Virus record (IMG/VR): IMGVR_UViG_3300009083_000009
Span: 1 to 21,757 of that record
Strand: one strand, 5' to 3'
DNA: 21,757 bases
Source: a virus
Shown here: in pieces, positions 2,697-16,161 of the stretch
Position numbering within the stretch: position 1 is the stretch's first letter
Layout of the letters: each line of letters starts with the position of its first letter
The notes under the pieces: generated by a model
What the model saw: the letters and a program-made list of their open reading frames with translations, nothing else
What the model was told of the DNA's origin: nothing
The model's database searches: none
Position numbers and translations under genes: made by a program

Positions 2697-2873
2697 CAAC
2701 CCAATTCGAACGAGCCGCTCTAGCGTCATTGGCGGTTTCCGCGCCCTGATTTGCGCACCGCCGCCCCAATCGCCCCGCCCGCAGACAACATCCAAGCACG
2801 CCGCATCCCCCCATGCGAGCGATCAAACCGAGCTGCGTAGGCGGGGTGATACCAAACAGCCCATAGAGGCTTG

Positions 2874-3770
2874 ATGCAGTCCATCTCCATCTCCATCCTG
2901 CTCCTGACCCGCAATCGCCCCGAGGGGCTGAAGCGCGTTCTGGACAGCCTGGCACACACGACCGCCCAGCCGGACCTATTGGAAGTGATCGTCTCTGTTG
3001 ACGAGGACGACCCTGAGACCGAGCGAGCCCTGACCGGCGAAATGCCCTTTCGGGTGATCGGCGTGAAGGCCCCAAGGCCCGACGCTGTGACGGCGATCTA
3101 CAACGGCCAATATGCAAAGAGCCGCGGCAACATCGTCAGCATCTGCCCGGACGACATCGTGTTTGAGACTGCCGGGTGGGATAACCTGACGCGGCAGACC
3201 TTTGAGACGGACCTAATCGGCCCGGCCGGCCTCGGCATAGCCTTTCCCTACGATGAGCAGGTAGGCTTCAACTTCGCCACCGCCCCGCATATGACGCGGC
3301 AGACCATCGAGTATCACCGCCAGATCACCGGCTTTTACATGCCGCCCTGGTTTCCGTTCTGGTTCGCAGATACCTGGTGGGACGAGATCGGCCTCTTGAT
3401 GAGCTGTCACGTCCAGATGGACTGGCGACAGATGACCCCGGACGGCAAGGGCCTGACCCGAGGGCTTCGTGACTTACCGTTTTGGGCCGACGTATTCGAC
3501 GCCACCCGCGCCATGCGCCTGACCGTGGTTCGCAAGCTAATCGACGCCGCCTATTGGGACCGGCCCGGCCTGCGCTCCACGCTGCAACACACCTTGGAAG
3601 ACCGGGCGATGCTCTGCCTCGGCCTGACACAGCGATACCGAAACCCCGAGATCGTCGCCACGCTCATGCAGCAGGGCGAAGAAACCGAACCATCCGAGCG
3701 ATACCTTAGAGCCAAGGCCACGGCCCGGGCTCTGATGGACAAGATAGGCCCCTTCCCAAGGGCCGAATAG
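2874..3770 (+). CDS. Glycosyltransferase family 2-like (GT-A fold)
   Basis: Start ATG 2874 has a good SD (AGAGG at 2864-2868); the TTG three bases upstream is less likely. The 298-aa product opens with a GT-A Rossmann strand and helix, ISILLLTRNRPEGLKRVLDSL (residues 6-26). The second strand ends in VSVDEDD (40-46), where family 2 enzymes hold the nucleotide base. The DxD-equivalent is CPDDIVF (Asp93-Asp94), the site for metal and nucleotide sugar. The second half is Trp/Phe-rich (PPWFPFWFADTWWDE) and presumably binds the acceptor. There is no signal peptide or TM segment, so it is cytoplasmic. It lies alone between early and packaging genes. Substrate unknown; virion protein, phage DNA or host envelope glycan are all possible. 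Confidence 0.75.
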   Translation: MQSISISILLLTRNRPEGLKRVLDSLAHTTAQPDLLEVIVSVDEDDPETERALTGEMPFRVIGVKAPRPDAVTAIYNGQYAKSRGNIVSICPDDIVFETAGWDNLTRQTFETDLIGPAGLGIAFPYDEQVGFNFATAPHMTRQTIEYHRQITGFYMPPWFPFWFADTWWDEIGLLMSCHVQMDWRQMTPDGKGLTRGLRDLPFWADVFDATRAMRLTVVRKLIDAAYWDRPGLRSTLQHTLEDRAMLCLGLTQRYRNPEIVATLMQQGEETEPSERYLRAKATARALMDKIGPFPRAE

Positions 3771-5563: not shown

Positions 5564-7711
5564 ATGAAGATGGACGACGAGACCCTCGCAACCATCGTCT
5601 CGTCGGAGATCGCCGACAGCGTGAGCTTTATCGACAGCGACATAGGCCCCCAGCGCGCCAAGGCCGTTGACTACTACTTCGGCCGCCCGTTCGGCGATGA
5701 GGAGGATGGCCGTTCGCAGGTTGTGTCCCGCGACGTTCACGACACCATTCAAGCCCTGCTGCCGAGTCTGATGCGGATATTCTTCGGCTCGCAGAACGTG
5801 GTCGAGTTCGTCCCCGAGGGCCAAGAGGACGTGAAGACCGCCGAGAAGGCGACCGAATACGTGAACTATGTTGTCAGCCAGGACAACGATGGGTTCGAAA
5901 TCTTCTATGCCGCGATCAAGAACAGCCTTCGCGAGCGGGTCGGCTTTGTCAAATACTGGTGGGACGAAAGCGTTACCGTCTCCACCAAACGATACACAGG
6001 CCTGGACGCCGACGCCGCGACCAAACTGCAAGAAGAGTTGGGCGGGGCCGAGAAGGTCGAGATGCTGGAGAGCAGCCAGGACGACGAAGGCCTCTGGTCC
6101 GTCAAACTGAAGATCAAGTGCAAGGTCAACCGCGTCCGCATCGACGCCCTGCCGCCTGAAGAGTTCCTGATTAGCCGCGACGGCCGGACTATCGACGCCG
6201 CCCGCTTTGTCGCTCACCGTTGCATGAAGACCGTTTCCGATCTGGTGGCGATGGGCCTGGACCGAGAGCTTGTCGAGGAACAATCGCAGGACGGCGACGA
6301 TCTGGGCAGTGTCGAGGAGCGTCTGGCGCGCAACCCCTATTCCGACGACTGGAGCGCCGGATCGGGCGGGGACAAGTCGCAGCGCCTGGTGCTCTACGTT
6401 GAGGCCTATCCGCTGGTGGACTTCGACGGGGACGGGATCGCCGAGCTTCGCAAGGTCTGCACCATCGGCCCCGGCTATACGGTCGTGTCCAATGAGGAGT
6501 GGGACGGCCGCCCGTTCGCCGACTTCCAATGCGATCCCGAGCCGCACACCTTCTTTGGCCAGTCCGTTGCCGATAAGACGATGGACATTCAACGCATCAA
6601 ATCAGCCGTTCTTCGCGGCGGCCTGGACAGCCTGACCAACAGCATCTTCCCCCGCACCGTCGTGATTGAAGGCGACGGCTATATGGAAGACGCGATGAAC
6701 ACCGAGAACGGGGCCGTGCTGCGCTCGCGCAAGGGCATCGGCTATGTGCCCCTGGTGACGCCGTTCGTAGGGCAGCAGGCGTTCCCGTATCTGACCTATA
6801 TGGACGAGGTGCGTGAGGGCCGGACGGGTATGTCCAAGGTCTCCATGGGACTTGACGCCGAAAGCCTGCAAAACACCACAGCCACAGCGGCGGAGGGGCA
6901 GTTCACTCGCTCACAGGACCGCATCGACCTGATAGCCCGTATCATGGCCTCGGGCATGAGGCGTTTGTTCCGGGGCATCCTGCACCTACTGGTGGAGAAC
7001 CAGACCGAAGGCCGGATGGTCAAGCTATCGTCGGCTTGGGAAGATGTGGACCCCCGCGCATGGCGGGCTGATATGGACGTGATCTGCACCCTTGGCCTTG
7101 GCGGCGGCTCGGACGCCGAGAAGCTGCGGCTGATGATGCTGGTCAAGGAATCGCAAGAGCAGATCATGCTTACAGCCGGCGTGGATAACCCGCTGGTGAC
7201 GCCCAAACAGTATCACAAGACGCTCACCGATATTGTCCAGCTTGGCGGCAACCGCAACCCGGACGCCTACTTCACCGACCCGGATGGCGAAGAGGCGCAG
7301 CAGCGCATGGCGGCCAAGGCCCAGCAGCCGCCGCAGGTCGATCCGAAGGTTCTTGAGGTCCAGCAGAAGGGCCAGCTTGCCCAGCAGTCGGCCCAAGCCG
7401 GCATGGATCTTGAGAACGCCAAGGCCGGCCACGCCGCAGAACTACAGTCTCAACAGGCCCAGGCGGACAACGAGCTGGCGATGGCCAGGATACAGTCCGA
7501 AGGCGAGATGAAACGCTGGCAGATCGAACAGGAAATGGACCTGAAGCGTGAGCAGCTACAGGCTGAACTGACCCTGAAGCGCGAACTTGCCTATGCTGAA
7601 CTGGACCTGAAGCGTGAGCAGATCGCCATGGGCGCTGCAACCGACATGCACGGTATCGACGTTGACGCTGATGTGGCGTCCAGCGTCCACACGGGCGGGG
7701 AGCCGGGCTGA
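5564..7711 (+). CDS. Portal protein (P22-type, long C-terminal helical barrel)
   Basis: Forms the dodecameric channel for DNA entry and exit. At 715 aa it is close to P22 gp1 (725 aa). The N-terminal part has conserved phage-portal features: AKAVDYYFGRPFGDEEDGRSQVV (around 32-54), then DTIQALLPSLMRIFFGS and a central core with ERVGFVKYWWDE. From about residue 580 to 690 the protein becomes a long Gln/Glu/Lys-rich helix, matching the extended barrel of P22 portal. It contains three 11-residue repeats of the type DLKREQLQAEL, with an 18-nt direct repeat (gacctgaagcgtgagcag) 66 bp apart in the DNA. The start abuts the terL stop, and the stop overlaps the next ATG (TGATG). Confidence 0.9.
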   Translation: MKMDDETLATIVSSEIADSVSFIDSDIGPQRAKAVDYYFGRPFGDEEDGRSQVVSRDVHDTIQALLPSLMRIFFGSQNVVEFVPEGQEDVKTAEKATEYVNYVVSQDNDGFEIFYAAIKNSLRERVGFVKYWWDESVTVSTKRYTGLDADAATKLQEELGGAEKVEMLESSQDDEGLWSVKLKIKCKVNRVRIDALPPEEFLISRDGRTIDAARFVAHRCMKTVSDLVAMGLDRELVEEQSQDGDDLGSVEERLARNPYSDDWSAGSGGDKSQRLVLYVEAYPLVDFDGDGIAELRKVCTIGPGYTVVSNEEWDGRPFADFQCDPEPHTFFGQSVADKTMDIQRIKSAVLRGGLDSLTNSIFPRTVVIEGDGYMEDAMNTENGAVLRSRKGIGYVPLVTPFVGQQAFPYLTYMDEVREGRTGMSKVSMGLDAESLQNTTATAAEGQFTRSQDRIDLIARIMASGMRRLFRGILHLLVENQTEGRMVKLSSAWEDVDPRAWRADMDVICTLGLGGGSDAEKLRLMMLVKESQEQIMLTAGVDNPLVTPKQYHKTLTDIVQLGGNRNPDAYFTDPDGEEAQQRMAAKAQQPPQVDPKVLEVQQKGQLAQQSAQAGMDLENAKAGHAAELQSQQAQADNELAMARIQSEGEMKRWQIEQEMDLKREQLQAELTLKRELAYAELDLKREQIAMGAATDMHGIDVDADVASSVHTGGEPG

Positions 7712-9087: not shown

Positions 9088-10056
9088 ATGGCCGCTCCCT
9101 CCGGCACTTTCACTCTCTACGACGCCAAAGGCATCCGCGAGGACCTCGCAGACCAAATCTATTCGATCAGCCCGACCGAGACCCCGTTCGTCTCCAACAT
9201 CGGCAAGAGGAAGGTCAAGCAGAGCTTCTACGAATGGCAGACCGATGACCTCGCCGCCGCCGTCACCACCAACGCCAAGGTGGAAGGTGATATCGTCTCC
9301 GCGACGACCATCACCCCTACCACCCGCGTCGGCAACTACACCCAGATCATGGACAAGCCGTTCACGATCTCGGGCACCTTGGAAGCCACTGACCGCGCCG
9401 GCCGCAAAGCCGAGTGGGCCTATCAGATGGCCAAGAAGGGCAAGGAGCTGAAGCGGGACATGGAAAAGACTTTCCTGTCCACTCAGGTCGCGGTTTCCGG
9501 CGGCAACACCACGGCTCGCAAGACCGCGGCGTTCAATAGCTGGCTGAAAACCAACACCAACAACGGCAACGGCACGACCGGGGACTACGCCTATACCGCC
9601 ACCCCGATCACCGCCCGCACCGCCGCCACGACCGGCACCATCCGCACCTGGACCGAGACCATCTTCAAGGATGTCGTCTCGCAATCCTGGGAAGAAGGCG
9701 GTGAGCCGGATATGGTCATGGTGGGCGCCTTCCAAAAGCAGCGCGCTTCCGCGTTCGCCGGCATTGCTGACCAACGCCACGAGGTCGGCAACGGCAAGGC
9801 GCGGATCATCGGTTCCGCCGACATCTATGTCTCGGACTTCGGCAACCTGACCTTCGTCCCCAACCGCTTCGTGCCTACGGACCTAGCCTATCACATCGAC
9901 CGCAACTACGCGTCGGTGGCGACCCTGCGCCCGTTCCACGACGAGAAGCTGGCCAAGACGGCGGATGGCGAGAACTACGTCATCCGTGTTGAAGTCGGTC
10001 TCCAGGTGGATAACGAAGCGGCTCACGGTGTGGCCCGCGATCTGAACCTCGCCTAA
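9088..10056 (+). CDS. Major capsid protein (SU10/DUF5309-type HK97 fold)
   Basis: Forms the icosahedral shell. The 322-aa product has the hallmark N-terminus of the SU10-like coat family: TFTLYDAKGIREDLADQIYSISPTETPFVSNIG (starting at residue 7). This is followed by FYEWQTDDL and a central GNYTQIMDKPFTISGT. The C-terminal part has VMVGAFQKQRASAF and the DIYVSDFGNLTFVPNRF strand. The start ATG 9088 has a strong purine-rich SD region (AAGAAAGGCGGA). The gene ends in front of a terminator-like hairpin. No separate decoration protein or protease gene lies nearby, in keeping with a scaffold that does not need a dedicated protease. Confidence 0.9.
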   Translation: MAAPSGTFTLYDAKGIREDLADQIYSISPTETPFVSNIGKRKVKQSFYEWQTDDLAAAVTTNAKVEGDIVSATTITPTTRVGNYTQIMDKPFTISGTLEATDRAGRKAEWAYQMAKKGKELKRDMEKTFLSTQVAVSGGNTTARKTAAFNSWLKTNTNNGNGTTGDYAYTATPITARTAATTGTIRTWTETIFKDVVSQSWEEGGEPDMVMVGAFQKQRASAFAGIADQRHEVGNGKARIIGSADIYVSDFGNLTFVPNRFVPTDLAYHIDRNYASVATLRPFHDEKLAKTADGENYVIRVEVGLQVDNEAAHGVARDLNLA

Positions 10057-10078
10057 CCGCTCTCTCCCCAGAGCAACT

Positions 10079-10120
10079 GCCAAAGGGCTGTCCTTAACCG
10101 GGCGGCCCTTTGGCCTTTCT
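10079..10120 (+). terminator. Terminator-like hairpin after the major capsid gene
   Basis: GCCAAAGGGC (10079-10088) pairs perfectly with GCCCTTTGGC (10105-10114). The pairing continues inward (10089-10093 with 10100-10104, two G-T wobbles), leaving a 6-nt loop TTAACC. It is followed by the short pyrimidine run CTTTCT. It lies 22 nt after the capsid stop and before the next SD, so it could be a partial terminator or a 3'-end stabiliser for abundant capsid mRNA. Confidence 0.65.
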
Positions 10121-10129
10121 GGAGCGCCC

Positions 10130-10441
10130 ATGAAGCGCCATTTCGACTTCGATCCCCTCACCGGGATCACCCAGACGTTCCACATGGACGCCGGGAGCGA
10201 CACGTTCTGGATCGAAGAGACCCAGGACCTCACGCCCCTGATCGACGCCAACAAGGCGAAGTTCAACGAGTTTTCAGGCCCCCGCGACAAGTGGGGAGAC
10301 CTCGCGCACGTCGCCAGCATCCCGTTTCTGCTCGCCAACCAGCTCATGCAGGAGGGGAAAATCTGGGATCAGGAATACCTCCGCCGCTGGGTCAATGACT
10401 CGGATAACGCCGTCTTTCGCACCCGTCCGGGGAGGATTTGA
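10130..10441 (+). CDS. Conserved phage head-region protein
   Basis: A 103-aa soluble protein directly after the capsid gene. The start ATG 10130 has GGAG 5 nt upstream. The front reads KRHFDFDPLTGITQTFHMD and the end DSDNAVFRTRPGRI. Both ends match a small, widely shared phage protein that sits after the coat gene and that I have seen only as 'hypothetical'. A conserved His/Ala segment (WGDLAHVASIPFLLANQL) lies in the middle. A role in the head or connector is inferred from position. The stop overlaps the next ATG (TGATG). Confidence 0.75.
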   Translation: MKRHFDFDPLTGITQTFHMDAGSDTFWIEETQDLTPLIDANKAKFNEFSGPRDKWGDLAHVASIPFLLANQLMQEGKIWDQEYLRRWVNDSDNAVFRTRPGRI

Positions 10442-11139
10442 TGACCGTCAAAGTCAAGGTCGGCATCCCGGCCCGCGATACGGTGATGACCGGGTTCGCT
10501 CATTCCCTGGCCATGATGACCGCTCGCTCTGCCGTGGCCGGAATCGAGATCGGCCTGACCACATCATCGGGAACCCTGATCGCCGACCAACGCAACAATC
10601 TGGCCAAAGCCACCCTGGACGAGGGGCAGGATTGGCTGCTGTTTCTGGACAGCGACATGGTGTTTCCATCCGACGCCCTGCTGCGCTTGCTGGCGCGCAA
10701 TGCCCCCATCGTGACCTGCAACTATTCCACCCGCCGCGCCCCTGCCGAGCCGGTCGCGTTCAAGCGCATCGGCACGCTGGAAAAGCTCTACACCGAAGAG
10801 GACAGCACCGGGGTTGAGGCCTGCGCCGCCAACGGCATGGGCGTGGCGCTGATTCATCGCACCGTGTTTGAGCAGACGCCGAAGCCCTGGTTCAACATCC
10901 CCTATATCCCCTCGTCGGATGGAAATTGGGGCGAAGACGTCTGGTTCTGCAACGCAGCCCGCAAGGCCGGCTTCGATGTCCTGGTGGACCACGACCTGTC
11001 CAAGCAGGTGCGTCACATCGGAATGCGTGAATACGACTACATGGACACGCTCGCCGTCAAGGAAGAGGTGGTGGCGCTGTGGGAAGCCGAACAGGCCGAC
11101 CGAGACGCCAAGGCGGCCCTCAAGGTCGCGGCCAAGTAG
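10441..11139 (+). CDS. Glycosyltransferase family 2-like protein in the structural cluster
   Basis: The start is ATG 10441, preceded by a strong SD (GGGGAGGA) and overlapping the upstream stop; the TTG at 10438 is not needed. The 232-aa product begins with VKVGIPARDTVMTGFAHSL. It has the DxD motif WLLFLDSDMVFP (Asp70-Ser71-Asp72) that binds metal and nucleotide sugar, then GEDVWFCNAARKAGF (Glu165/Asp166, a catalytic-base-like position), and ends with VDHDLSKQVRHIG (His192), a typical GT-A metal ligand region. No signal peptide. It sits between a head gene and the adaptor gene and probably glycosylates a virion or host component. It differs strongly from the other glycosyltransferase at 2874, so it is not a recent duplicate. 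Confidence 0.8.
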   Translation: MTVKVKVGIPARDTVMTGFAHSLAMMTARSAVAGIEIGLTTSSGTLIADQRNNLAKATLDEGQDWLLFLDSDMVFPSDALLRLLARNAPIVTCNYSTRRAPAEPVAFKRIGTLEKLYTEEDSTGVEACAANGMGVALIHRTVFEQTPKPWFNIPYIPSSDGNWGEDVWFCNAARKAGFDVLVDHDLSKQVRHIGMREYDYMDTLAVKEEVVALWEAEQADRDAKAALKVAAK

Positions 11140-11760
11140 ATGGCCCTCGACACCTTCGCCAACCTGAAGACCGCCCTCGCCACTTGGCTGCGGCGCGATG
11201 ATCTAACCGCATCCATCCCCGATTTTATCACCCTGGCCGAGGCGCAGATCAACCGCCGGCTGAAGGATGCGAAGGTAACGGCCCGCGCGACGGCTACGAT
11301 CTCCGATGAATACAGCGCCGTCCCCAGCCGTTTCGGCGGCGTCGTTTCCTTCGACCTGGCCACCAGCCCCAAGACGCCCCTGAGGCAATATTCCCCGCCT
11401 GAACTGAACGGGCTGGTGGCGACGATCTACCAAACTACGGGCAAGCCGCTGGCCTTCGCCGTGGTCGGGTCGGAGTTCCGCTTCGCGCCGTCCCCCGGTG
11501 AAAGTTACACAGCCGAGCTGACCTATTACCAAGGCGTAGCGGCCCTGTCGGACAGCGCCACGACCAACTGGCTGCTGACCGATCATCCCGACGCCTACCT
11601 CTACGGCGCCCTGGTTCAGTCGGCCCCGTTCCTGCGCGCGGACGAGCGCTTAGGCGTCTGGGGAACGCTGTTCACCACAGCCCTGGACGACATCATCACA
11701 AACGCCGAGCGGGCCAAGTTCGGCGCCCGGCCACTGGCGCGCTTTCGGTCCTTCGGCTGA
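11140..11760 (+). CDS. Head-tail adaptor (SU10/P22 gp4-like)
   Basis: Binds under the portal and joins it to the tail. The 206-aa product opens with LATWLRRDDLTASIPDFITLAEAQINRRLKD (from residue 13), the usual helical start of this adaptor family. It continues with GKPLAFAVVGSEFRFAPSPGESYTAELTYYQG and closes with NWLLTDHPDAYLYGALVQSAPFLRADERLGVW. These segments are well conserved in adaptors of alphaproteobacterial phages as I recall them. The ATG follows the glycosyltransferase stop without a gap (TAG-ATG), and its own stop overlaps the next start. The position (after coat, before tail hub) fits P22 gp4, though gp4 itself is shorter (166 aa). Confidence 0.83.
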   Translation: MALDTFANLKTALATWLRRDDLTASIPDFITLAEAQINRRLKDAKVTARATATISDEYSAVPSRFGGVVSFDLATSPKTPLRQYSPPELNGLVATIYQTTGKPLAFAVVGSEFRFAPSPGESYTAELTYYQGVAALSDSATTNWLLTDHPDAYLYGALVQSAPFLRADERLGVWGTLFTTALDDIITNAERAKFGARPLARFRSFG

Positions 11761-11930
11761 TGCCCTGGTCCCCCGTCTCCCCAATCGCTGAGACATGGAT
11801 CTACCTCCCGGCCGTCCGGATCACGACCGAAGCCGACATCACACTGACCACGGAAGACGGCGTCGAGTTGGCGACCGAAACCGACACGCGGGCCGATCCC
11901 TGGACGCCCGTCCCCATAACGGAGGCCTGA
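11760..11930 (+). CDS. Small hypothetical virion-region protein (56 aa)
   Basis: ATG 11760 overlaps the adaptor stop (TGATG) and the stop overlaps the next ATG in the same way, so it is embedded in the operon. The protein is acidic and Thr-rich with a beta-type pattern (IYLPAVRITTEADITLTTEDG, then WTPVPI). It has no membrane segment. It is probably a small beta structure, perhaps part of the connector or fibre attachment. No family recognised. Confidence 0.6.
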   Translation: MPWSPVSPIAETWIYLPAVRITTEADITLTTEDGVELATETDTRADPWTPVPITEA

Positions 11931-12787
11931 TGCGCCACCTCGCCCGTCTTGCCGTCGCCTGGTTGATCCTGGGGGCTGGCCTCGCCCTGCCTGCCTCTGC
12001 GCAGATCCGCATCTCGGAACTGCCCGCCGCTACGGCAGTTGCCGACGCAGACCAGACCATCATCGTCCAGGGCGGGGTGACGAAGCGGGCCACGGCCGCC
12101 CTGGTCCGCGACGGCCTGGCCACCGACGCCGAGCTTGCCGCGGTGCAGGCCGCCAACCCTTCGGCAAGCATTGGCCTTTCGGCCGTCAACGGCGTGGCCA
12201 CGACCTATATGCGGTCCGATGCGGCGCAGGCGCTGTCTCAGGCCATCGTCCCGACCTGGACCGCCACGCACAACTTCTCAACCATCCTGGCGCGAACCGA
12301 CAACACCTATGACATAGGGGCGTCCGGGGCCACTCGGTTCCGCGACCTGTTCCTGGCCCGCAATGCGTCCATCGGTGGAACGCTCAGTGTAACTGGAGTC
12401 GCCACCTTCACGACCGCACCGGTTTTCGGCACCCCCGTCTTGGTCTCTGCCGGCCGATCGACCAAGGCCACCGTCACCATCGCCACGGCGACCTTCACGC
12501 CCAACTTCGACACGGCCGCGGACTTCGAGATCAGCCTCACATCGGCCTGCCCTTGCACGCTCGCGAACCCCTCGACCACGCCGGTCGCCGGGCAAAAGGG
12601 CGTGATCTATGTGACCCAAGACGCGACCGGATCGCGGACCATCGGGACATACGGCTCGTTTTACAAAATCCCATCCACCGGGATCACCCTCACCACGACC
12701 GCCAGCCGAACGGACGTCCTTAGCTATGTGGTGCGGAGCGCCACGCAAATCGTTCTGACCCTGGGGGCTGTAAATGTTCCGCAATAG
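11930..12787 (+). CDS. Tail fibre-like protein with N-terminal signal peptide
   Basis: The start ATG 11930 has a strong SD (GGAGG, 4 nt before) and overlaps the upstream stop; no other usable start follows for about 90 codons. Residues 1-24 form a classic Sec signal peptide: MRHLAR, a Leu/Ala/Val/Ile core, then LPASA before Gln25. The mature part starts IRISELPAATAV with IIVQGGVTKRATAALV, a fibre-type N-terminal pattern. NTYDIGASGATRFRDLFLARNASIGGTLSVTG (about 124-155) is the repeat motif common in phage tail fibres. A beta-rich C-terminal domain has ITLTTTASRTDVLSYVVRS. The 285-aa product is probably part of a fibre. The signal peptide is unusual for a virion protein. It overlaps the next gene by 14 nt. 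Confidence 0.75.
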   Translation: MRHLARLAVAWLILGAGLALPASAQIRISELPAATAVADADQTIIVQGGVTKRATAALVRDGLATDAELAAVQAANPSASIGLSAVNGVATTYMRSDAAQALSQAIVPTWTATHNFSTILARTDNTYDIGASGATRFRDLFLARNASIGGTLSVTGVATFTTAPVFGTPVLVSAGRSTKATVTIATATFTPNFDTAADFEISLTSACPCTLANPSTTPVAGQKGVIYVTQDATGSRTIGTYGSFYKIPSTGITLTTTASRTDVLSYVVRSATQIVLTLGAVNVPQ

Positions 12788-13706
12788 CCGCACCCTTGCC
12801 GCGTTTGCGGCCCTTCTACTCTTCCATATCTGGACCGTTTCCCCGGCCCTAGCGTGCATCCAGGCGACTGGCGGGACCATCACCCAAGTCGGCGCTAAAA
12901 AGGTTCATACATTCACGACTAGCGGCACCCTGACCGTTACGGCCATTCCGGCCGGCAGTCCGGTCGACTACCTGACGGTTGCCGGGGGTGGTGGTGGGGG
13001 CCGGGGAAACGTGACAAACGCCGGCTCGGGTGGGGGCGGCGGTGGCGGTGTTCTGTTCGGGTCCTCAACCGCGATCACGGCCATAAACTACACCATCACG
13101 GTGGGCGCTGGCGGCACGGGATCGACCGCAATCGGCTCGACGGGCGTGTCCGGTAGTAATTCGAGCTTTGGCGCTATTGCCAATGCCACTGGTGGGGGCG
13201 GCGGTGGGTCTAACTCTAATCTGAACGGACTGCTCGGCGGCTCTGGCGGCGGTGGCGCGGTCGGCGGCGGCGGGCAAGGCACGGGCGGAACGGGCACTGC
13301 CGGGCAAGGATTCCAGGGCGGCTCGGGAACCGCGACCCTAGTTAATGGCGGTGGCGGCGGGGGCGGCTGCTCTGCCGTAGGCACGGGCGGCGGAAGCAGT
13401 GTTGGAGGGCCGGGCGGGCCAGGCTGCGCCTACTCCATCACCGGACTGAGTGTGACCTATGCGGGCGGGGGTGGGGGGAGTATGGCGGGCGGCGTCGGCG
13501 GAACGGGGGGAGGCGGGAGTCAGCCGGGCGGCGCTGGCACTGCCAATCTGGGCGGTGGCGGTGGCGCTGGCTCATCAACAAACGACGGCGGAACGGGCGG
13601 GAGTGGCATCGTCATCATCAGCTATAATTCGTCCTGCGCGGCCGGCTTCTTCATGGGCCCGCTGTCGGATAACGACAACGAATCGCCCCTGCGCGCCGCG
13701 GCCTGA
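12774..13706 (+). CDS. Glycine-rich adhesin-like tail protein with signal peptide
   Basis: A 310-aa product from ATG 12774, with GGGGGC upstream. Residues 1-27 form a signal peptide: MFRNSRT, a hydrophobic stretch with LLLFHIW, then SPALA before Cys28 (the -3 to -1 residues do not form a standard lipobox). A short beta part (KKVHTFTTSGTLTVTAIP) leads into VDYLTVAGGGGGG. About 200 residues of Gly-rich repeats follow, with ITVGAGG, NSSFGAIANATGGGGGG and finally GGTGGSGIVIISY. This order matches the phage glycine-rich domain family, related in style to polyglycine-II adhesins such as S16 gp38. It likely forms a receptor-binding tip. The DNA has many G-runs that could form quadruplexes. Confidence 0.75.
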   Translation: MFRNSRTLAAFAALLLFHIWTVSPALACIQATGGTITQVGAKKVHTFTTSGTLTVTAIPAGSPVDYLTVAGGGGGGRGNVTNAGSGGGGGGGVLFGSSTAITAINYTITVGAGGTGSTAIGSTGVSGSNSSFGAIANATGGGGGGSNSNLNGLLGGSGGGGAVGGGGQGTGGTGTAGQGFQGGSGTATLVNGGGGGGGCSAVGTGGGSSVGGPGGPGCAYSITGLSVTYAGGGGGSMAGGVGGTGGGGSQPGGAGTANLGGGGGAGSSTNDGGTGGSGIVIISYNSSCAAGFFMGPLSDNDNESPLRAAA

Positions 13707-13715
13707 GATCGAACT

Positions 13716-13740
13716 GCCCCTTGAGGGGCGACTAAGCCCC
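13716..13740 (+). promoter_or_regulatory. Two mutually exclusive hairpins (three-arm element)
   Basis: Arm 1 GCCCC (13716-13720), arm 2 GGGGC (13725-13729), arm 3 GCCCC (13736-13740). Arm 2 can pair with arm 1 (loop TTGA) or with arm 3 (loop GACTAA), but not with both. It lies between the glycine-rich gene and the SD (GAAGGA) of the 29-codon ORF. No T-tract follows, so an intrinsic terminator is not supported. A switch is possible but unproven. Confidence 0.35.
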
Positions 13741-13757
13741 AATCCGAAGGAATCCCC

Positions 13758-13847
13758 ATGTTGAAACTCCTGCGCCCCCTGCTGGCGCTGGTCGTGGCGA
13801 CGTGCGCCGCGCCGTCCTTTGCCGACACCACACCCTCGACAATCTGA
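13758..13847 (+). CDS. 29-codon ORF, almost only a signal peptide
   Basis: ATG 13758 has a strong SD (GAAGGA, 6 nt upstream). The product is MLKLLRPLLALVVATCAAPS then FADTTPSTI: a basic n-region, a Leu/Val/Ala core and a clean signal-peptidase site after SFA. Cleavage would leave a 7-residue peptide, DTTPSTI. It could be a remnant of a third signal-peptide-bearing appendage gene, a leader controlling the gene 17 nt downstream, or a genuine tiny exported peptide. Confidence 0.45.
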   Translation: MLKLLRPLLALVVATCAAPSFADTTPSTI

Positions 13848-13864: not shown

Positions 13865-14695
13865 ATGGCTGACACCATCCTATCGCCCTCTGGTCTCGTC
13901 CAGATCGAGGTTGGCGCTTCCGACTCCTCCTGGGGGGAAAAGGAGAGCGCCGACAAGGCGACCATCAACGGCTGGTTCACGACCGGGCCCGCGCTGAAGA
14001 CGGCCAACGGGGGCTTCGGAGCTGCCCTGACGCCCGTTGTCGGCGATATGCTCTACGCCTCCACCACCAGCGCATTCGCCCGTCTGGCGGCCCCCGCTGT
14101 GGGTCAGGTGCTCACCTCGGCCGGCGTGGGCGTGGCGCCCTCCTGGAGTAACGCCCCGGCCGTCACCAACATTGCCGTTGGTCTGCACAATAACCTGACG
14201 GCATTATCCGCTTCGGTTAGCGGGGAGGCGACAGCAGCCGGCAAATACGGCGGTCAGTTCATGTCCAGCAATGGCTCGTCTGGGCAGTATGCGGCGATGT
14301 TCAGGACCGACCGCATTGATGGCGGCTTCACCCTGTTCAAATACGGCACCACCACTGTTGGCTACCATGTTACCGACAGCACGGGGGTGAGCCTGACCAG
14401 CCTTTCAGATGGTCGCCGCAAGACGATCTTGGCCGAATACGACCCCGGCGACATCTTCGACCGCATCGAGCATCGCAACTACGTCTGGGACAACGGCGTC
14501 AAAGGCTTCGGCCCAATCGCTCAGAAACTCTATCTGGTCGCCCCCTGGCTTGTGGTGAAGGGCGACGACGATCCAGACAAGCGCCCCGGCGACGAAGGTT
14601 TCGAGCCTTGGACGATCAAGCTCAGTCCCGGCGAAAAGATGCTGTTTGCCGAGGTGAAGGCCCTGCGTCGTCGCATGGCGGTGCTCGAAGGCTGA
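13865..14695 (+). CDS. Tail appendage with C-terminal S74 intramolecular chaperone
   Basis: The 276-aa product begins at ATG 13865 with GGAG 8 nt upstream and has no signal peptide. The first part (MADTILSPSGLVQIEVG, then DSSWGEKESADKATINGWF and LTSAGVGVAPSW) resembles tail-fibre shaft segments. From about residue 175 the S74 domain is clear: SDGRRKT with Ser181 and Lys186 (the Ser-Lys dyad of endosialidase-type chaperones), then NYVWDNGVKGFGPIAQKL, then a helical end FAEVKALRRRMAVLE. In this family the domain helps trimer folding and cuts itself off at the Ser, which here would release about 96 residues. It is likely a trimeric spike or fibre. The stop overlaps the next start (TGATG). Confidence 0.8.
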   Translation: MADTILSPSGLVQIEVGASDSSWGEKESADKATINGWFTTGPALKTANGGFGAALTPVVGDMLYASTTSAFARLAAPAVGQVLTSAGVGVAPSWSNAPAVTNIAVGLHNNLTALSASVSGEATAAGKYGGQFMSSNGSSGQYAAMFRTDRIDGGFTLFKYGTTTVGYHVTDSTGVSLTSLSDGRRKTILAEYDPGDIFDRIEHRNYVWDNGVKGFGPIAQKLYLVAPWLVVKGDDDPDKRPGDEGFEPWTIKLSPGEKMLFAEVKALRRRMAVLEG

Positions 14696-16161
14696 TGTCC
14701 CTCCTCAGCCTCAAGCTCCCCCCCGGCGTCGTCAATAACGGCGCAGAGAGCGAAAGCGCAGGCCGATACCGCATCACCAACCAGGTCCGCTGGATCGACA
14801 GCATTCTGCGCCCTTGGGGCGGCTCTCGCGCGCGATCCAGCGCGGCGGCTGTCACAGGCAAGGCCCGCGCGGTCCTGCCTTGGCGCGACAATTCGGGCGA
14901 CCGCTGGATCGCCATTGGCACGAATAGCAAGCTCTACGCCCAAAAGCAGGACGGCACGAATTACGACATCACCCCGTCAGGCTTCACGGCTGGGTTGGCC
15001 GATGCAGCATATAATACGGGTTATGGCGGCGGCCTCTACGGCGCCGGGACCTATGGCACGCCGCGTGCATCGACCGGCTCTGTCACCTCGGCCGGGCTCT
15101 GGACCCTCGACGTTTTCGGCCAAAACCTCATTGGCTGCATGGGCGACAGCGACGGCAAAATCTACCAATGGGCCTTGGCGACAGGAACCCCCGCCGCTGT
15201 CGTCACCAACGCCCCTACCGGCTGCGCAAGTTGCTTTACATCCCCAGAAGGCCACCTGGTCGCGCTGAAAAACCGCACCGTTCTGTGGTCGGATCAGGAG
15301 GCCGCGACGACCTGGACGGCGACGGCCACCAACCAGGCCGGCGACCAGAACCTGCAAACCACGGGCAGCTTGATCTGCGGCCGGGGAATGAAGGGCCAGA
15401 GCCTGGTTCTGACCTCCACTGACGCGTGGTCTATGGTCTATAGGGGACAGCCCTATATCTACGGCTTCACCCGCGTAGGGCAGGGCTGCGGGGCAATCTC
15501 CAAGGGCGCCCTGGTCGTCACCGATACGCTTGCCGCGTGGATGGGTGCGGAGGGCTTCTTCGGCTTCGACGGCTTCGTATCGCCGATCCCGTGCGATGTC
15601 ACCGACTACGTTTTCAAGGACATCAACCGCGCTCAGGTGTCCAAGGTCGTCGGCATCCACTACGCCGCCGCCGCCGAGGTCCGCTGGCACTATCCCTCCG
15701 GGGCGTCTGTTGAGGTGGATCGCTACGTCGCCTTCAACTACCGCGACAATCACTGGAGCGTCGGCACAATCGACCGCATCGGCGGCTGCGATAAAGGCCC
15801 CTACGACTATCCGATGATGACTTCTGCGGACGGCTACCTCTACGAGCATGAGGTGGGGCTCAATAGCACCTGGTATGCGGAAACCGGCCCCTTCCGCCTC
15901 GGCCGGGGCGACCGGATGCTCCAGGTCAACCGCATTGTTCCCGATGAGGGCACGCAAGGCGACGTGACGGTGACGATCTACACCAAAACATGGCCCAACG
16001 GATCTGAGACGACGCGAGGCCCCTACACCATGGCCGATCCAACCGACGCCCTATTCCAGGCGGCTCAGATGCGCATTCGCTACACCGGCAACACCCTGGC
16101 TGACGCTCGCATTGGAGAGTTCCGCATGGATGTGGTTCCGGGCGATTATCTGGTGATCTGA
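14695..16161 (+). CDS. Tail hub / packaged-DNA stabilisation protein (P22 gp10-like)
   Basis: ATG 14695 overlaps the upstream stop; an ATG 29 codons earlier lies inside the S74 gene and is rejected. The 488-aa product is close in length to P22 gp10 (472 aa). It is beta-rich and repetitive: RWIAIGTNSKLYAQ, NLIGCMGDSDGKIYQW, HLVALKNRTVLWSDQE, KGALVVTDTLAAWMGAEGFFGFDG, then a C-terminal RIRYTGNTLADARIGEFRMDVVPGDY. Such blade-like repeats fit a propeller hub under the adaptor that holds needle and spikes. The C-terminal 'IRYTG...RIGEFRMDV' ending is common in these phage proteins. The exact family name is inferred from these patterns and from gene order. Confidence 0.75.
   Translation: MSLLSLKLPPGVVNNGAESESAGRYRITNQVRWIDSILRPWGGSRARSSAAAVTGKARAVLPWRDNSGDRWIAIGTNSKLYAQKQDGTNYDITPSGFTAGLADAAYNTGYGGGLYGAGTYGTPRASTGSVTSAGLWTLDVFGQNLIGCMGDSDGKIYQWALATGTPAAVVTNAPTGCASCFTSPEGHLVALKNRTVLWSDQEAATTWTATATNQAGDQNLQTTGSLICGRGMKGQSLVLTSTDAWSMVYRGQPYIYGFTRVGQGCGAISKGALVVTDTLAAWMGAEGFFGFDGFVSPIPCDVTDYVFKDINRAQVSKVVGIHYAAAAEVRWHYPSGASVEVDRYVAFNYRDNHWSVGTIDRIGGCDKGPYDYPMMTSADGYLYEHEVGLNSTWYAETGPFRLGRGDRMLQVNRIVPDEGTQGDVTVTIYTKTWPNGSETTRGPYTMADPTDALFQAAQMRIRYTGNTLADARIGEFRMDVVPGDYLVI

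Follow-up and report, generated by a model that had tools for sequence, protein, structure and literature searches.

Two adjacent genes in the tail cluster of a podovirus genome fragment, here called ORF1 and ORF2, encode a fibre-like and a glycine-rich protein that both begin with a predicted Sec signal peptide (SP). Genes of this kind recur in unrelated phages, with fibre domains behind the predicted cleavage site and with an even-cysteine and CPC-loop signature in the mature proteins. These features make it very probable that fibre proteins of the ORF1/ORF2 type are exported from the cytoplasm. Our main reading, to which we assign a probability of roughly 45%, is that they represent a mobile cassette of fibre-derived adhesins that undergo Sec export, fold in the periplasm and attach to virions at lysis.

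The window, by which we mean the whole stretch of DNA that was analyzed, corresponds to the whole virus record, a 21.8 kb (21,757 nt) fragment. It derives from a podovirus and encodes a portal, a major capsid protein and an adaptor of the SU10 type. Its terminase groups it with podoviruses such as Bradyrhizobium phage ppBeUSDA76-2 (70% identity), EBPR podovirus 2 and Sulfitobacter phage phiGT1. Downstream of the adaptor come ORF1 and ORF2, then an ordinary fibre-like protein and a virion structural protein (Table 1). A search of the tail cluster for sigma-70-like promoters, which is a weak test, returned none. The window also hosts two glycosyltransferase-like genes. The first (10438-11139; phrog_12406 glycosyltransferase, 2e-9; weak Anp1 match) is located between the capsid and adaptor genes, within the structural cluster, and its product might modify virion or fibre proteins. 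The second (2871-3770; phrog_14945, 2e-15) is upstream of the terminase.

Table 1. Features of the tail cluster in the window
Feature	Coordinates	Strand	Evidence
SU10-type adaptor; tail cluster begins here	11140..11760	+	Profile match
ORF1, fibre-like, predicted Sec SP	11930..12787	+	SP rule, domain comparison, same pair in L002
ORF2, glycine-rich, predicted Sec SP	12774..13706	+	SP rule, Pfam Gly_rich_2, phrog_2295
29-codon ORF, SP-like	13758..13847	+	SP rule; SP-like stretch followed by six residues
Canonical fibre-like protein without SP and without cysteine	13865..14695	+	SP rule, N-terminus comparison
Virion structural protein phrog_3287; fibre cluster ends here	14698..16161	+	PHROG match

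We called SPs with our own rule, which looks for a basic start, an uncharged hydrophobic core and an AxA-type site. This is a rule-based score rather than SignalP, and both the score and the longest-ORF gene calls are sources of noise. Among the 29 window genes, only four scored as SP-bearing: ORF1, ORF2, the 29-codon ORF and a 59-aa hydrophobic ORF of holin-like size (1822-2001), which is more likely a membrane protein. ORF1 and ORF2 have all three elements expected for Sec export. In ORF1 (285 aa) the SP spans residues 1-24 and ends at an ASA/Q site (MRHLARLAVAWLILGAGLALPASA/Q), with GGAGG as SD just 5' of the start. In ORF2 (310 aa) it spans residues 1-27 and ends at an ALA/C site (MFRNSRTLAAFAALLLFHIWTVSPALA/C); the best-scoring site is SPA/L, two residues early, while ALA/C is better by eye. 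The start of ORF2 overlaps the stop of ORF1 by 14 bases, and its SD is weak (GGGGG). Lipoproteins, the substrates of signal peptidase II, are marked by the lipobox pattern [LVI][ASTVI][GAS]C. We rejected ORF2 as a lipoprotein since P-A-L-A/C has L at -2 and P at -4.

In GC-rich DNA, SPs of this sort could arise by chance or from a wrong start codon. Antisense frames do yield an occasional false match: in the real window, the ATG ORFs of at least 200 aa with an SP are ORF1, ORF2 and one antisense chance ORF (5909-6781), and the 29-codon ORF could be another such case. However, 60 dinucleotide-preserving shuffles of the window gave no SP-scoring ATG ORF of at least 200 aa, and the rule found no SP in 90 head-side genes of related viral contigs or in 42 structural CDS of the nearest cultured relatives. 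Together with the conservation of the pair in contig L002 described below, these counts contradict chance or a wrong start for ORF1 and ORF2. We regard this explanation as extremely improbable, and the SPs of the two genes are no accident.

The original prediction had listed three successive SP-bearing ORFs, each with a plausible SD. ORF1 and ORF2 withstood the shuffles and the background comparisons, but the third ORF, 29 aa in all (MLKLLRPLLALVVATCAAPSFA/DTTPSTI-stop), has no protein body behind its SP-like stretch and therefore cannot be counted as a third exported fibre. As for the SDs, the claim holds for ORF1 and for the 29-codon ORF, which has an SD-like GAAGGA, and less well for ORF2. 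The 29-codon ORF is probably the vestige of a third SP gene of this kind, or else a chance ORF. ADTTPSTI around its cleavage site resembles the start of the next fibre (MADTILSPS) and that of L047-type fibres (MADTTTSN), and the ORF may possibly be a remnant of an SP-fibre fusion. An RNA hairpin 5' of it was no better than in shuffles (z 0.15). The true next gene is the SP-less fibre-like one, with an N-terminus like that of the L047/L031 fibres and a weak, sub-threshold Peptidase_S74 match.

Behind its SP, ORF1 has an N-terminal fibre domain marked by 'ISELPAATAVADADQTIIVQGGVTKRAT', then a 'YMRSDAAQALSQAIVPTWTATHNF' segment, and finally a tip domain (residues ~178-281) that is all-beta and carries Cys207-Pro-Cys209. 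The N-terminal domain is found with an SP in ORF1, L116 and L152, and without one in L155, L102, L103 and L106. The tip domain also occurs on SP-less phage fibres, in agreement with the earlier description of ORF1 as tail-fibre-like. The description of ORF2 as glycine-rich and adhesin-like was likewise borne out, with its mature part matching Pfam Gly_rich_2 (2.6e-16) and phrog_2295 (1.9e-47). No match to ORF2 was found in cultured phages, probably owing to the low-complexity filter, and no sequence match was found among solved structures. The AlphaFold model of ORF1 is usable for the C-terminal beta domain only (pLDDT 70-85). Its Foldseek matches are weak, the best being the Pa223 capsid spike (E 1.4e-3), followed by StcE, a chaperone-substrate complex, the KP1 baseplate cup and T4 gp9, and we therefore left the predicted fold out of the evidence. 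The ORF2 model (mean pLDDT 38) is too poor for structural comparison.

The same gene pair, in the same order and with an SP on both genes, is found in L002, a myovirus-like contig of 5.6 kb with a baseplate-J-like gene upstream (recognized by position and start sequence, with no Pfam match) and a DUF2612 gene downstream. The first 28 residues of ORF2 differ from those of L002 at only five positions. The C-terminus of the adjoining ORF1 shows 46 differences over 342 bases, and 35 of these fall at third codon positions. Since the domain behind the ORF1 SP differs between the two, the N-terminal domain appears to have been swapped, yet the SP is present in both. Homologues that begin after the SP would speak against export, and here the outcome is mixed: the close relatives L002 and L003 retain the SP, while distant fibres with the same domains begin where the mature protein would.

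A scan of IMG/VR with the N-termini of L002, L003 and L008 returned 31 loci, of which we analyzed 30 and left out L149. In 22 of these 30, a strict SP (score at least 6) precedes 'QSSPGLxxGQVPTAAQWNSYFAAKQD'. L124, L133, L136, L139 and L147 score 4.4-5.8, with the site misplaced by the rule and a normal junction visible by eye; inspection by eye makes an SP plausible in L137, and none is present in L125 and L148. The PHROG matches of this fibre family are mostly tail fibre, tail spike and virion structural protein (4 of 10 are without a match), and its loci lie beside baseplate and fibre genes. Rows of two to four SP genes, often adjoining a canonical fibre, occur in L003, L122, L126, L134, L136, L138, L141 and L142; in L009 such genes lie close together. 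In L136 (4008-7868), four successive tail-cluster ORFs with SP-like starts, two by rule and two by eye, precede an SP-less 'QSYGGAGDGVTDNVTPL' tailspike-type ORF. In L163 (MW202444), a gene annotated as a sep15/selm redox domain (9907-10152) lies on the opposite strand just before a 1253-aa SP-bearing protein, and would thus be a phage redox gene adjoining the gene of a putatively exported fibre-like protein. Among 80 relatives of the window, SP genes are rarely found after the adaptor. We therefore do not regard them as a trait conserved in this lineage, and prefer a mobile cassette to vertical inheritance.

In two loci, L145 and L146, an SP-like N-terminus stands before a complete canonical fibre N-domain: the match to phrog_12796 'tail fiber protein' begins at residue 25/26, which corresponds to profile position 3/4. 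The same domain type is SP-less in L127, L134, L135, L003, L141 and six cultured phages, and in the latter the protein begins at the fibre domain itself. The SPs of L145 and L146 are weaker, and that of L145 fails the rule. One copy of the domain was found in each of these contigs, which are fragments of 32 and 22 kb, and another fibre could lie elsewhere. Were the exported protein still to dock on a tail, a conserved docking domain would be expected at this very place, immediately after the cleavage site.

Exported bacterial proteins favour even cysteine counts (PMC7678975). The idea of using this signature arose from the fibre family and was then tested on all loci of the set. Cysteine counts are even in 40 of 49 mature SP-bearing proteins and in 91 of 201 SP-less genes of the same loci (p = 5e-6). 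When one member per cluster is considered, the figures are 78% of ~44 and 44% of ~165 (Fisher test, median p = 4e-5, worst p = 6e-4). The family that suggested the idea is for this reason excluded from the cleanest test, in which the enrichment is still detectable (18/24 compared to 91/201, one-sided p = 0.005). It is also present when only proteins with at least two cysteines are counted (32/36 and 91/148, p = 0.0009). ORF1 and ORF2 follow the same trend, with two cysteines in the mature part of the former and four in the latter (positions 28, 199, 218 and 288). In the SP-bearing ORF1, L002, L003 and L122, the tip domain contains 'SACPCT', where a two-residue insertion gives Cys-Pro-Cys. The insertion and both cysteines are absent from the tip domain of the SP-less fibres L101, L118, L100, L119, L047, L050, L037 and L031; several of these eight copies come from window relatives (L047 type), and the rows are partly dependent, with L047, L050, L037 and L031 close to one another. 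The SP-bearing L134 has a diverged tip-like domain with the insertion and without the cysteines. Even counts and the CPC loop point to an oxidizing compartment and, together with the SPs before fibre domains in unrelated contigs, they support the export that had originally been proposed.

These data also bear on the possibility that the hydrophobic N-terminus is a virion-anchoring or trimerizing segment rather than a working SP, and that the protein stays in the cytoplasm. Virion proteins normally do so, and the SP prediction used here is rule-based. However, the AxA-type motif lies right before domains that elsewhere start the protein, and in a reducing compartment the even-cysteine bias and the CPC insertion would have no obvious reason. 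We consider this explanation improbable.

Virions of tailed phages are put together in the cytoplasm, which speaks against our main reading. Free fibres can join finished particles in lysates, as P22 tailspikes and T4 long fibres do, and export followed by joining at lysis is therefore physically reasonable. According to our proposal, ORF1 and ORF2 form a mobile cassette that encodes adhesins derived from tail fibres, and late in infection the host Sec system would send these proteins to the periplasm. In this compartment, the SPs would be removed, the proteins would fold and disulfides would form, yielding a fibre shaft with a beta tip from ORF1 and a glycine-rich tip-type adhesin from ORF2. 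The mature proteins would most likely meet virions at cell lysis and attach as extra fibres. We infer cleavage, disulfides, late timing and attachment from the sequence features described above. Like phage tail fibres, the proteins have domains common to fibres and are encoded in the tail cluster, and that virions are their destination has, in our judgement, slightly less than an even chance. Assembly may be split between two compartments, a scheme that we put forward tentatively: heads and tails would be made in the cytoplasm, while fibre subunits would leave it through Sec, be oxidized and folded in the periplasm, and join virions at lysis only. Double-stranded DNA phages would then have a route of fibre maturation in the periplasm. 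We found no precedent for periplasmic fibre maturation in the open-licence literature and no report of SPs on tail fibres; the latter is weak evidence of novelty, as preprints and most subscription papers lie outside this literature.

In several of these phages, among them that of the window, an SP-less fibre is encoded as well, and exported fibres may therefore be extra rather than virion parts. An SP-less fibre beside SP-bearing genes fits attachment to virions and a decoy role alike. The proteins could indeed be free adhesins, never present on the virion, that attach to receptors or surface glycans of the host, either from the periplasmic side or once the cell has lysed, and in this way save progeny from being lost on debris or exclude superinfecting phages. 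The evidence for export and the cysteine signature apply equally to such adhesins, their receptors could be common to virion fibres given the common tip domains, and in the window and many contigs the SP genes accompany the SP-less fibre instead of replacing it. There is also a precedent in T5 Llp, a disulfide-bearing phage protein that blocks the receptor from the periplasm (PMC9586334). On the other hand, conserved N-terminal fibre domains with variable C-termini would be needless for a pure decoy, and in L145 and L146 the sole canonical fibre found is the SP-bearing one. The genes also lie within the structural cluster, where the weak promoter test gave no promoter-like site. Free adhesins are, in our opinion, possible but doubtful.

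Alternatively, lysogens may make these proteins from prophages as surface adhesins that alter the sticking or recognition of the host. Besides the export signals, this would fit gene 380 (phiAO1_380) of the mitomycin-inducible Acetobacter phage phiAO1, which encodes an SP-bearing tailspike-like protein of 820 aa whose weak pectate-lyase-like match falls slightly short of the Pfam cut-off; the phage is inducible but predicted to be defective (PMC8566455). However, the genes touch or overlap those of the tail and seem to be transcribed together with late genes, no domain for anchoring in the outer membrane was found, and only two matches to the N-terminus of family A turned up in 397 genomes from a single order. 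In cultured phages, the 56-aa N-terminus of one family A member had no match. Lysogenic conversion is therefore quite unlikely.

If our main reading is true, phages rely on the secretion and disulfide machinery of the host for their receptor-binding proteins, and the cytoplasm is, contrary to the rule, not the only place where tailed virions are built. It would explain a class of SP-bearing ORFs in phage tail clusters that is undescribed in the open-licence literature, and would provide a sequence rule for finding such genes, namely an SP, a fibre domain and even cysteines. Even if the proteins are free exported fibre-tip adhesins, which is the milder reading, they would constitute a new and apparently common phage action on the host surface.

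Among known systems, the fibres of the phrog_12796/Bcep781 gp31 type and similar Acinetobacter myophage fibres share with L145 and L146 the N-terminal fibre domain and the location after baseplate J and DUF2612-type genes; they differ in that the six cultured members compared lack the SP-like N-terminus before the domain. Gly_rich_2 and phrog_2295 proteins are both matched by the mature part of ORF2, which differs in being a stand-alone protein with an SP and four cysteines, and which is presumably analogous to the glycine-rich tip adhesins of the T-even gp38 type. Superinfection-exclusion lipoproteins such as T5 Llp and those of the Cor type are also made by phages, exported to the periplasm and encoded beside receptor-binding genes. 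T5 Llp is a small lipoprotein, whereas ORF1 and ORF2 are fibre-like or glycine-rich proteins of 285-310 aa without a proper lipobox, and we rejected their assignment to this class on size, lipobox and domains. Finally, signal-peptide endolysins and spanins are likewise phage proteins that use the host Sec system, but they are lysis proteins, whereas ORF1 and ORF2 encode fibre-like ones.
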